Positions 21-50,896 of a DNA stretch of 64,000 nt are shown here, in pieces. The first letter of the stretch is position 1, and every line of letters starts with the position of its first letter. The stretch lies in contig JACSVZ010000011.1 of the NCBI GenBank assembly GCA_014706295.1, forward strand, positions 12,058,163 to 12,122,162. The letters run 5' to 3'. This stretch comes from Lycocorax pyrrhopterus obiensis (taxonomy: Eukaryota; Chordata; Aves; Passeriformes; Paradisaeidae). The position numbers and the translations under genes are program-made. The notes beneath the pieces are model-generated. The model was not told the origin of the DNA. It saw nothing but the letters and a program-made list of their open reading frames with translations, and searched no databases.

Positions 21-3000
21 AGTAATTTTAGTAACAATATAACAAGTCTTGGTATCAAATGTCGATTATTAAGATCAATATATGCAACAGTAGGACAATC
101 ACTGGATTTTATGTTAATGGACTAAAAGTAGAAGCTCCTACCTTAGCTCTGTACTGCACATCCAAAAGCACATTGGAAGGTTTCAGGCTGCAGTGGCAGA
201 GAGCAGGTTCCAGGCTGTGAAGATGATGCAGCCCTTCAGCCACATCCAACAGGATCCTTATGAGTAAGGGAAAGGGAAGTTCTGGGTACAGTTGATGCTA
301 AGTAACACAAAATACAGGTTTGAGTAGTGTGAAATTGTTACTATTCACATTTTCATTTGACAACAAATAGAACTACAGTGCAGAAACTGAAGAAAGGATT
401 GTGACTACTGTCCGTAATTTACATGCTGATTGTTCTTTGTTGGCTGATCTTGTAATTAATTTTATCACCTCCAAGATGACATCTTTTATCTACCTCATGG
501 ATGAGGGAGTGGAGGGATCCATTGTTCATCCATTCAGTCACTATCCCCACAAGTCCATGGTACTGGTAAACCCCAAGGAAAGGCAGGAGATGTTCAGACT
601 CATAGTGTCTGACACTTGCTATGTCCTGAAGCAGCAAATTCCACTCCCTGTAAAAAAAACAAGTTAGAGGCAGGTTAGACTGAAGGGAGCTTCAGAAAGA
701 GATGAGAGTGTAGGATGTGGAAATGAGAGAGAACCATATGGTTGAGCACAAGTTAGTATTATTTTACCAATAACCCAATATCATATAATCTTCCAATCAA
801 TTCCAAGAACATGAAGCAGTCGTAGTGTAGTGTATTTTTCCCATATAAAGTAAATTTAATTTTTCTAATATAAAATGAAAGATGTCTGGATGCTTTAATA
901 TGAACATAAGAGCACAGTTTGAAGCAGGATTGAAGTGTGAAGGCAGGAAAAAGCTGGAGTATATGAAGTGGTAGATTAAGAATAAAACAAGGATTTTTCC
1001 TCTACTGTTCCCAAGAACTTGTAATCTTTTGCTATTAGTGACATCCACATTTACAAGGAAATGATGTGTTTCCATGCTTTCCATGCACATCTCACTGCTA
1101 TGTAACCCTGGCCATTACCTTCCCTGCTCCCATTTCCCCTGCTCTCATCTGTACATGCTGGTTTAGATTAAATTCAACTGAGGTCTCTTCACAGACCTCT
1201 AGAAAGACAACACCTTAGCATACTGCAGTTACTCATCAGGGTTTGTAGACGTTATTATAGTAGATTAATTATTGACTTCAGGATTAAGCTCTACTTTATA
1301 AAAAATTGTAAACAACCATAGAGCTTGTTTCTCAGTAAAATTGCCTCCAGGTTGCCTCTTGGCTAGTCAAGATTTCTAGGAATGGAGATGTGCTTGGGGA
1401 TCAGGTGATCCTGGATATGCCACGATTCGTTCTGGTGCCACCGCTGCAGGTCTGTGCTGCCCACCTGCGTGGTTGGTTGGGCAGGTAAGACACGTACCTG
1501 TCTGTACTGTCCTGGCTGGTCAGCAGCTTCACAGAGATGGGAGTGTTCCAGGAGATATGAAAGGCTTTGAGTGCAAAGCCCGAGCCTGTCCTGGTCAAGG
1601 TAAAGCTTTCCAAATCTTCCTGGGCTACCACAGGTAATGGATTGGCCATTTCTTGATGGCTGGCTTGGGGGGAAAATGTGACAGAAAAGAAAAAAGTTTT
1701 AAGAGAGTTTTTTGTCATAATTACCAAAGCACAGTGAAGTTGCACTACGCCTTACTTCCTAAATAGCAAATGCAACAGCCTTCCTTTCACCACTCTGTGT
1801 CAGACTTTCCTTACAAAGAGAGGAAAAATGCCCTAATTGCAAAGAGGTGTCTGAACCATAATTTGCCACCTGATTCTGCAAGGTGCTAATTAATTGCTCA
1901 TCATTATTTCTATCTGACGCCTTTGAAATAGTAGACCAGTATTTATAATATAAAATGTGATTTTAATGTGATACTGAATTATGTAGACAACAAACTAGCA
2001 TCTTGCAGTTGCATGCCAGGCAAATAATTTCTCCACTTCTGATAAAAAAGGCAATTGTTCAATAACTCATGTCAGCATGTTCTGCATCATTCTTGCATAT
2101 CTTCTTTAATATATCATATGTGAATGCAAAAGGAAAGAAAAAGGTAAAACTCCTGCTATTGTGAACTGTCAGAATTCTGATAAATGGAGTTGTGTCAGTG
2201 TAGCCGCCACTAATTTGGGCTGTACAGTGTCTATCCAGGACCTCTCCAGGGCCAGCTGCACGTCTCCCACACTTTGCATGGCAACACACACGGATTAGGG
2301 ACAACTTCTGCAGAGCATCACCGTGTTACTACGTGAGTAACAGTTCTAATCACATCTGTGAAGCTCCATTAGACTAGAGATAGCCAAAAAGTGAGTGGTA
2401 GAGGAAGACAAGCAATCTAAGATAACAGATGGCATAAAAGAGATAGCATTGGTAAGGATTACTGCAAGATCTGTGGTCAGTGAGTCAGAACTCCTCCAAC
2501 TGGAATACTCCCTTTGAGGTCCAGTAGAGCAGGACTAGAAAAGGAAACATGAGGGAACTGAAGTAACTGTGAAGGACTTTTGAGTGAGAATTGTGTCCTT
2601 TTAGATGTGCTCTACAAAAAGAACTCCAGGGATGCAGAAGGCCTCCAAGTCCACATAACCTTTTCTCCACAAGTAAAACAGAAACAAAAGCCTGGAGATA
2701 AATTTGCCTGTGATCTTGCTTCTGGTTCATGAACATTTTATTGCTGGTGAATCTCAGTCTCTTCCTGCAGGCAGGTTCACAATCTAAGCTCAGTTTTGCC
2801 TCTAACCACAATCAAAATGCAAAAAGCAGCAGCTGATTTACCAGTTCAGCTTTAACCATATTTGATTCTGGTAGGAAAGCACAGAACTTTTTGCTTTTGG
2901 TTAGATTATTGTAGTTTGAAAGCAATAACTGCCCTAGGTGCTTCTCTGAGAATTTCCTTAAAAAAAGAGATGAGGCTGACAAGTTAACAATTTCATAAAA

Positions 3001-48600: not shown

Positions 48601-50896
48601 TTTGAGCATCTGGTCTTCCTCTCTTTAGGATTTGGAGTATCTGTCTGAAGGCTTGGAGGGACGATCCCACAGCCCTGTGGCTCTTCTCTTTGATACTCTT
48701 CAGCGTCCAGACACAGACTTTGGTGGGACAGCAGAATCTGTACTCACTTGGTGGCATGAGCCCGACAGAGCCATCCCCCACCTGGTCCTTGGCAGAAACC
48801 CTCCTGGAGGCGCCTGGCACGTAAGTGAATTGGAGCTGAGCCGGGGTCTGTGTCTTGTCTAACAGCCAAATGTGTTGACTGGAGAGAGAAAAGCTCCTCT
48901 AAAATGCCAGTCAGCCATATGAGATTTTATATATACAGACAAGAGAAAGTTTAAAAGGAAAACAAGCATGAGAGGCCTTTATATTTCCCATCCCTTGTTC
49001 TTTTTGGAGAACATGGATGCTTTCAACCATGACAGCAGATCAGAGGAAATTACTGATTTCATCATCTGTGCCGTATTGAAACATGGAAAAGTTGCCTTTC
49101 ACTTTTACGTTAAAAAATTGAAGTAATTTTTCTCTGTTTCTTGTTCCAGTCTATAGAGGGCTCTATGGTCACCCTGAGCAGAGGGGAATGGATGGGACTC
49201 CCAGATCTCCCTTTCAAAGAATGGTTAAAGCAAAAGAGAAGGTGAGATATCCATGGTGTGGTCATTTGAAAACATCTGGAGATTTTTAGAGAACCTGGAA
49301 TGGACTTCTTGAATGCAGCTACCCATCTGTTGTGGATGATTTTAGTGAGAGAAAGGACACCCTCCCACACCCCCAAACCAGTCCATTCTACATTCAGTGA
49401 TTCGGATAAAGTTGCAGTGCTGCTTGGAATGTGTCCTTCTCCACACCCACTGGGGAGAACAATCAGTGACCACGAGTTCTGAGTAAAGCTTGAAAGTGTG
49501 GTCACCTGGCTTCTGTGTGTACTGCTGCTGTCCCTGATGACAAATGTAATCAGCTACTGTGTCTCTGAGGTGCTTCTTCTCTTGACACGTGTCACAATTA
49601 ATCTTAAGAAGTCCAGGAGTTAAAAATGGAATGGAAGCAAGATATTAGAGAAAGGCTTAAATAGCCAACCATGTTCCTGGGGTTGGGATTAATGCTAGAG
49701 AAAGCTGCCTCTGTCCAACAGCTTCTGGACCTGACTGTTAGCTTTACGTGTCAGGAATAACTTTGCTGAGCTCGGGGAAACTAGATCAGTCTTCTCTGGT
49801 AGTGCCAAGACAGATGGCTCTAGGATACATTCAGCACAAGAGGGGACAAATTCCAATCTGTTACTGAACTGCTGCTTGACCTTTGTTTCTACTTTATTAC
49901 AGAGGCCTCAGAAACAATAGAGCCACAGCAGAGGACATTGCTCAATATTACCAACACTATGTGATGAAGAAAGGACTGCAGAAGAATTTCAGATGTGGCA
50001 CTGTTGTGACCTCTGTGAGGAAAGTGAGTGCAGAGAGCATCTCCAACCACACCCAGAAAGATCTGCAGGAGGATAGTGACTCACTCTGGAGCTCTAATGA
50101 ACAAAGTACGGAGGTCTTTCAGGTGGATGGATTTTTCAGAACTGTGGAAGGTGATAAAGAGCCCTTCTCCATTCATGCAGAGAATGTGGTCTTGGCTACG
50201 GGAACATACGACAATCCTACCTGGCTCGGGGTCAAGGGAGAAAACCTTTCCTATGTCCACCACCAGCTGTCTGCCCTAGAAGAAGCAGTGAAGAACAACA
50301 GTGTTGGCATCATGTCAGATCCAGTCTTGATTGTAGGTGCTGGTCTGACAGCTGCTGATGCAATTCTCTTTGCTCACCATTGCAATATTCCAGTAATCCA
50401 TGTTTTTCGGAGACGAGTTGGTGATCCAGGCCTTATTTTTAACCAGCTCCCCAAAATGATGTACCCTGAGTACCACAAAGTCCATCAGATGATGAAAGAA
50501 CAGACAGCTGCCTGTGCTGGGCCCTATGAGTGTTACATCAGCCTCCCTGAACATCACGTGCTCTCCTTTGGCAAGGACAAGAAATGCATCTTGCAAGACA
50601 AGAATGGCTGTCAGAAAGCTTATAAAATTTCCATGGCTCTTGTTCTAACTGGCTCAAACCCCAACCTCTCCTTTCTGCCAAATGATGGCATTGACTTGGC
50701 AATGCACAGTGACCAGCCAGTCAATTCAAAGAGGAATCCCATAGATGTTGATCCATTTACCTATGAATGCACTCAGGAGAAAGGGCTCTATGCTCTGGGA
50801 CCTCTAGCAGGAGATAACTTTGTACGCTTTGTGCAGGGAGGGGCTCTGGCTGCTGCCAGCTCTCTGTTAAAGAAAGCCAACAAAAATCCCCCCTAA
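45613..50896 (+). CDS. OSGIN1: OSGIN1, oxidative stress-induced growth inhibitor 1 (complete)
   Basis: Five coding exons (to 45697; 48171-48307; 48629-48820; 49150-49241; 49903-50896) join in frame with GT/AG borders. They give 493 residues from Met 45631, or 499 from Met 45613; human OSGIN1 has 477. The protein is flavin-monooxygenase-like. The first Rossmann motif is IGNGPSG (residues 22-28), a second dinucleotide motif VGAGLTAAD is at 307-315, ATG at 261-263, and the C-terminus has GPLAGDNFVRFVQGG. DLEYLSEGLEGRSHSPVALL and the final KNPP match OSGIN1 better than OSGIN2. Known roles: growth restraint and apoptosis under oxidative stress, NRF2 and p53 induction, partly mitochondrial. No frameshift or early stop was found. 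Promoter and 5'UTR exon are inferred at 41.2-41.4 kb. Confidence 0.96.
48171..48307 (+). CDS. OSGIN1: OSGIN1 second coding exon (FAD-binding Rossmann motif)
   Basis: Acceptor is a long T tract ending TTTCAG at 48170; donor is GACCAG/GTTCGT at 48307/48308. It encodes residues 23-68: NGPSGICLSYLLSGYTPY and then HPHPILQRKLEEAPEVSVLD, nearly identical to human OSGIN1. The split glycine codon (G/GG) completes the GxGxxG motif that binds the ADP part of FAD. Confidence 0.95.
48629..48820 (+). CDS. OSGIN1: OSGIN1 third coding exon
   Basis: Acceptor CTCTTTAG at 48628, donor CAC/GTAAGT at 48820/48821, 192 bp in phase 0, residues 69-132. DLEYLSEGLEGRSHSPVALL and RPDTDFGG are OSGIN1 signatures. IPHLVLGRNPPGGAWH ends the exon and matches the human exon end exactly. 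Confidence 0.97.
49150..49241 (+). CDS. OSGIN1: OSGIN1 fourth coding exon
   Basis: Acceptor CTTGTTCCAG at 49149, donor AGAAG/GTGAGA at 49241/49242. It is 92 bp, residues 133-162 plus two bases of Arg163. SIEGSMVTLSRGEWMGLPDL and WLKQKR correspond to the human SIEGSMVILSQGQWMGLPDL region. Confidence 0.96.
49903..50896 (+). CDS. OSGIN1: OSGIN1 last coding exon (NADPH-type Rossmann motif, C-terminus, stop)
   Basis: Acceptor CTTTATTACAG at 49902; the CDS ends with TAA at 50894-50896. It encodes residues 164-493. It opens GLRNNRATAEDIAQYY and contains NVVLATGTYDNP and DPVLIVGAGLTAADAILFAH. The middle carries NIPVIHVFRRRVGDPGLIFN and QLPKMMYPEYHKVHQMM, and it ends GDNFVRFVQGGALAAASSLL. The variable stretch at residues 204-233 differs from mammals in length and sequence; the rest aligns without gaps. 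A single large terminal exon is typical of this gene. Confidence 0.98.

Follow-up and report, generated by a model that had tools for sequence, protein, structure and literature searches.

RIPK2B, a RIPK2-like gene without the catalytic aspartate, and its possible part in NOD1-RIPK2 signalling

What does a RIPK2-like kinase do when its catalytic aspartate is missing? This question is raised by a stretch of 64,000 nucleotides from the bird Lycocorax pyrrhopterus obiensis (contig JACSVZ010000011.1; the whole stretch is called the window), where HCS stands in place of HxD in a 154-residue RIPK2-like kinase part. We assign the exon concerned, with very little doubt, to a pseudokinase encoded by RIPK2B, the second copy of RIPK2. 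The best explanation overall, held with modest confidence, is that RIPK2B would take part through its CARD in NOD1-RIPK2 signalling, as a partner without catalytic activity that may act as a brake.

The gene model and the loss of the catalytic aspartate

Three coding exons were found on the minus strand. Exon 1 (1498..1649) starts with the ATG at 1649 (start context AAGAAATGG), ends at the donor gtacgt and encodes the N-lobe with a degenerate glycine loop, TGSGFA, and the beta-3 lysine, Lys41. Exon 2 (494..647; acceptor ...ttttacag, donor gtagat) encodes the alpha-C helix. Residue mapping places Phe30 and Asn35 of exon 1 at the positions of RIPK2 Arg36 and Arg41, Asp59 of exon 2 at that of the alpha-C glutamate, Glu66, and Thr88 at the gatekeeper. 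Exon 3 (142..297) has an acceptor ...ttag before 297 and the donor gtagga after 142, is open in frame (HQLYPELPFPLLIRIL...ALCHCSLKPSNVLLDVQYRAK) and encodes the catalytic loop HCSLKPSNVLLD, in which Ser139 occupies the position of the proton-acceptor aspartate. Spliced at GT-AG borders, the three exons form one reading frame of 154 residues, MANPLPVVAQEDLESFTLTRTGSGFALKAFHISWNTPISVKLL...REWNLLLQDIASV...HEHQLYPELPFPLLIRIL...CHCSLKPSNVLLDVQYRAK, of which 149 are identical in the orthologue of Corvus cornix, the nearest of the relatives found. A version of 150 residues without the junction residues matched Pfam Pkinase (E = 2.6e-15). The original prediction had described exon 3 as open with intact splice sites and had numbered His137, Ser139, Lys141, Asn144, Lys41 and Asp59; counting from the ATG at 1649 we find the same frame, borders and positions, and the exon boundary agrees with the orthologues. 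An exon 2 donor at 468 joined to an exon 3 start at 281 was ruled out by the orthologue junction HEHQLYPELP. The window stops after exon 3, and the rest of the gene, left of base 1, was inferred from orthologues. An Rfam scan gave no match at gathering scores.

A kinase that has lost at least one of the beta-3 lysine, the HRD aspartate and the DFG aspartate is a pseudokinase, and the window protein has lost the HRD aspartate. It is not a canonical RIPK2, as it carries HCS in the loop and Phe and Asn at R36 and R41.

A protein search gave 92 relatives among 468 candidates, with cartilaginous fishes already represented by Heptranchias, a sevengill shark, and Callorhinchus, a chimaera. When 12 relatives were used for a profile search, 225 were found among 7993 scored candidates; the best 120 were examined and 30 were new, including amphibians (newts, axolotl and a frog), echidna, lungfish, ray-finned fishes (bichir, bowfin and teleosts), further snakes and a sawshark. 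The RIPK2B counts rest on these 122 relatives (92 and 30 new ones among the matches listed). For canonical RIPK2, a search with a fragment of the human protein found 563 proteins, of which the best 120, from mammals, birds and reptiles, were examined. Both sets were collected by similarity to a member of the paralogue concerned; the canonical set is without fish or amphibian RIPK2, and neither contains lamprey. The RIPK2B rows are sequence clusters, some of them isoforms of one species (P0083/P0084, P0086/P0087), so that their counts are not counts of independent events. The loop was not covered in P0086, P0087, P0108 and P0121, which leaves 118 of 122 rows with an aligned loop.

The catalytic aspartate was missing in 117 of these 118 rows, from sharks to birds, and was replaced by Ser (82), Ala (10), Asn (9), His (5), Arg (4), Thr (4) or Gly (3). 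The sole row with an aspartate, P0082, is a broken gene model from Chelonia in which the aligned IRSDHSPYN is no catalytic loop; its other aligned letters remain in the residue counts. HHD was found in all 120 canonical RIPK2 proteins examined (119 by pattern and P0224 by eye). The loss is therefore neither an individual mutation nor specific to birds: the dead loop was also found in reptiles, amphibians, a monotreme and fishes, and HxD in orthologues, which the original prediction had named as evidence against itself, was not found in any aligned catalytic loop. The simplest reading, by parsimony, is that the aspartate would have been lost once, before the split of cartilaginous and bony fishes.

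The beta-3 lysine was kept in 108 of 112 RIPK2B rows, the catalytic lysine in 114 of 118, the asparagine in 117 of 118 and the DFG aspartate in 119 of 119. The retained ATP-site lysine and the aspartate at the alpha-C glutamate, both pointed out earlier for the window protein, recur in the family, the latter position being Asp in 81, Glu in 28 and Asn in 2 rows. The DFG phenylalanine was Tyr in 98 of 119 rows, giving the DYG that orthologues carry outside the window. Eight snake rows (P0073, P0093-P0099) have DFG, not DYG, yet their catalytic aspartate is replaced by Asn or His. The activation-loop residues S174 and S176 were replaced in most RIPK2B rows. Among 45 canonical rows R36, R41, K209, S174 and DFG were invariant, S176 was found in 44, E279 and S282 in 43, and K285 in 39.

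At six positions of the nucleotide site and the catalytic loop (human 47, 144, 148, 151, 164, 166) the residue was kept in at least 93% of RIPK2B rows. Of 204 conserved kinase columns 49 were kept to this degree, and the chance of the six-position result is 1.5e-4, which is a guide only, because the six were chosen after the table had been seen, the columns are not mutually independent, and three further positions, G27, Glu66 and Phe165, would fail. A structure predicted from 12 sequences had a predicted local distance difference test score (pLDDT) of 47 and was not used. Judged from its sequences, the RIPK2B family is one of a conserved kinase fold, linker and CARD, with the HRD aspartate missing in all main lineages sampled.

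RIPK2B as a paralogue of RIPK2

In a tree of 39 rows, 27 of the 122 RIPK2B rows were found on one side of a branch (100/99) and 10 canonical RIPK2 rows apart (89/99). Inside RIPK2B the rows fell into a cartilaginous group (100/96), a ray-finned group (96/100) and a lobe-finned group (92/91), the last holding echidna, frog and lungfish without a firm position. The root is not firm, because the outgroup consisted of two fragments, the tree was midpoint rooted and a long-branch warning was given. The partial window protein stood outside the tree and belongs to RIPK2B because of its identity to the Corvus protein. The full-length Corvus protein scored 194 bits against RIPK2, 135 against RIPK4 and 126 against RIPK3; this score and the grouping of the orthologues uphold the description of the gene as RIPK2-like.

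In eight reptiles with both genes, the kinase domains of RIPK2 and RIPK2B were 31-34% identical within a species. Over the 28 pairs of these reptiles the mean identity of the kinase was 71.8% for RIPK2B versus 89.6% for RIPK2, and that of the CARD 79.6% versus 89.6%.

We take the window gene to be the RIPK2B that was named in 2025, in eLife, as a second RIPK2 paralogue and described as a RIPK2-type kinase with CARD in non-therian vertebrates, both domains being said to be retained (PMC12119088). The main text of that report, without its supplements, contains neither pseudokinase nor OSGIN nor synteny. The name RIPK2B was found only there in the literature searched, and among the matches listed, which were mostly open literature without supplements, none described it as a pseudokinase. 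Two RIPK2 genes have been reported in lamprey, anole and zebrafish (PMC9573974).

The CARD, the XIAP-docking surface and possible functions

Pfam found a kinase domain and a CARD (PF00619) in all four relatives scanned (Corvus, Heptranchias, echidna and bichir), and kinase-CARD proteins of the RIPK2B type occur in many jawed vertebrates among the matches listed. The original prediction had called for a look at DFG, CARD and RHIM; the orthologues carry DYG and the CARD, and no conserved RHIM was found: in a pattern test a RHIM-like tetrad occurred in just 4 of the 122 relatives, and its places were unrelated. The CARD residues R444, D461, Y474, E475, R488 and D492 were invariant in all RIPK2B rows covering them. 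In RIPK2 filaments the type I interface is reported to include R444, R488, D461 and Y474, and the type III interface E472, E475, R483 and R488 (PMC6168553, PMC13249360). From the residues kept and changed (D495 aside), much of type I seems preserved and type III altered. Between Heptranchias and Corvus RIPK2B the CARD was 60% identical and the kinase 46%. That RIPK2B would function through its CARD appears quite likely.

For human RIPK2 it is reported that mutation of R36 lowers XIAP binding (PMC10485824; R36 and R41 also in PMC6120666) and that mutating R41, K209, E279, S282 or K285 abolishes it (PMC10485824). R36 and R41 also sit in the dimer interface of RIPK2. RIPK2B rows kept R36, R41, K209, E279, S282 and K285 in 4, 2, 8, 0, 11 and 0%, respectively; K285 was changed to Glu or Asp in 120 of 120 rows and K209 to Glu in 101 of 119.

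The original prediction was right on the loss of the aspartate in an open gene, and the scaffold-type function that it suggested is likely; its other suggestion, an ATP-sensor, is conjectural. RIPK2B would transfer no phosphate, nucleotide binding might persist, and the protein would act by protein contacts. It would most probably enter NOD1/RIPK2 or other CARD assemblies via the conserved type I surface. Because most BIR2-docking residues of RIPK2 are replaced, it would be unable to hold XIAP, and might modulate or restrain the ubiquitination of RIPK2 and the output of NF-kB instead of driving them. We propose a negative or tuning role on NOD1-RIPK2 tentatively. The complete form of the proposal, in which RIPK2B would be a brake derived from genome duplications that uses its CARD to join NOD1-RIPK2 filaments and deprives them of XIAP, is possible and on balance doubtful.

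Several observations weigh against the preferred explanation. The ATP site is partly lost, with G27 kept in 0%, the alpha-C Glu66 in 25% and the DFG Phe in 13% of rows. Weak activity persists in some kinases without the HRD aspartate. As many as 105 of the 204 conserved kinase columns were lost as strongly as the XIAP residues, so the chance of losing six of six is 0.017, and the loss of the XIAP surface exceeds general divergence only modestly. R36 and K209 are retained in sharks and the chimaera (5 rows overall keep R36 and 10 keep K209), and the surface was therefore lost stepwise. In the CARD, R483 was Val or Leu in 112 of 116 rows, E472 was variable, and D495, a further contributor to type I, was Leu in 111 of 116; because of these changes in the type III contacts and in D495, it cannot be taken for granted that RIPK2B pairs with NOD1 or RIPK2.

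The main rival explanation is that RIPK2B is a positive, redundant scaffold which activates NF-kB like kinase-dead RIPK2, engaging XIAP otherwise or using another E3 ligase. Kinase-dead human RIPK2 (K47R, D146N) is reported to restore NOD2 signalling to near wild type (PMC6120666), and both the CARD and the kinase fold of RIPK2B are conserved; however, with the six BIR2-binding residues kept in at most 11% of rows and the low kinase identity to RIPK2 within a species, we regard this explanation as unlikely. More improbable is an active enzyme with an unusual site that takes its acid from the P+1 position. The threonine found there in 45 of 45 canonical rows (human T189) was Asp in 118 of 120 RIPK2B rows (Asp182 in Corvus, outside the window), a constant but different site between the paralogues, and the beta-3 lysine, catalytic lysine, asparagine and DFG aspartate are retained. 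Against such an enzyme stand the absence of G27, an alpha-C glutamate that is mostly Asp and the replacement of S174 and S176 in most rows.

A decaying gene, a pseudogene or an individual mutation is hardly tenable for the family. RIPK2B does diverge faster than RIPK2 in both domains, and the downstream exons of this bird fall outside the window, but the frame and splice sites are open within it, kinase-CARD proteins recur in many jawed vertebrates and key CARD residues are invariant. Just as improbable is a relic, in birds, of RIPK3 or of a necroptosis effector resembling MLKL. Taken alone, the first 150 residues scored RIPK3, RIPK4 and RIPK2 about equally (74.8, 74.6 and 73.1 bits), and one source names the orthologue P0052 RIPK3; the full-length protein is nevertheless nearest RIPK2, and the CARD and the scattered RHIM-like tetrads argue against such a relic. 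The earlier framing in terms of birds, necroptosis and MLKL found no support, the orthologues carrying a CARD and no conserved RHIM and the dead loop occurring also outside birds. The P0052 record, from Hypotaenidia okinawae, is named RIPK3 though birds are reported to be without RIPK3; it was not in the tree, and its assignment to RIPK2B comes from its catalytic loop and from 78% identity to the query.

Should the brake proposed here exist, it would have been kept since before the split of sharks and bony fishes and lost in therians, and the mouse and human form of the NOD pathway would be without a regulator that many vertebrates have. Since the XIAP-docking residues are replaced, we predict an adaptor or brake that is missing from the mammals studied. 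NOD2 is reported to be missing in birds and reptiles (PMC12119088), and NOD1-RIPK2 signalling may therefore be wired differently there. A natural RIPK2 twin that has no aspartate throughout the jawed vertebrates puts the idea of kinase-independent RIPK2 signalling to an evolutionary test.

The neighbouring OSGIN1 gene and comparison with known systems

OSGIN1 was located 47 kb from RIPK2B and was the single neighbour seen in the window. Its last coding exon lies in an open reading frame (ORF) on the plus strand (49880..50893; match from 49904) with a Pfam Pyr_redox_3 match. The translation was 57.6% identical to a provisional human OSGIN1 sequence and 49.1% to a provisional OSGIN2 sequence, and on this comparison the neighbour was assigned to OSGIN1 and not to OSGIN2. 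An upstream exon stretch (48629..48859, plus strand, approximate ends) in an ORF beginning DLEYLSEGLEGRSHSP was recognised by eye against the same provisional human OSGIN1 sequence; scanned alone it gave no Pfam match. Among 128 chosen ORFs overall, no Pfam match (E 0.01) was found in the 32 of at least 95 amino acids starting between 1.7 and 48 kb, where short exons would escape, or in the 96 of at least 55 amino acids from 50.9 kb on. MLYCD, which flanks human OSGIN1, was not seen between RIPK2B and OSGIN1, where again short exons would escape. Between 52001 and 64000 the G+C content climbs from 0.39-0.44 to 0.46-0.49 toward the right end, and a neighbouring gene may start there.

Canonical RIPK2 presumably adjoins OSGIN2 in human 8q21. 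OSGIN2 itself is reported to map to 8q21.3 (PMC10082810), and RIPK1-5 are reported to share no common neighbours in a comparison of human, frog and invertebrates (PMC9573974). The presumed pair RIPK2-OSGIN2 and the pair RIPK2B-OSGIN1 suggest early-vertebrate genome duplications, in which RIPK2B probably arose along with OSGIN1 and OSGIN2.

RIPK2B shares with canonical RIPK2 the domain order, the fold and the CARD type I residues except D495, whereas canonical RIPK2 has HHD and presumably OSGIN2 as its neighbour, and RIPK2B lacks the aspartate and lies beside OSGIN1. The same motif residues are lost and kept in pseudokinases of the HER3/KSR type, with the ATP-site lysine and DFG aspartate kept and the HRD aspartate lost; these belong to another kinase family, and the CARD is a feature of RIPK2B. 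MLKL is, like RIPK2B as proposed here, a catalytically dead protein with a RIPK-related kinase fold. RIPK2B differs from it in having a CARD and no conserved RHIM-like motif, and Pfam found in the four relatives a kinase domain and a CARD and no other domain.
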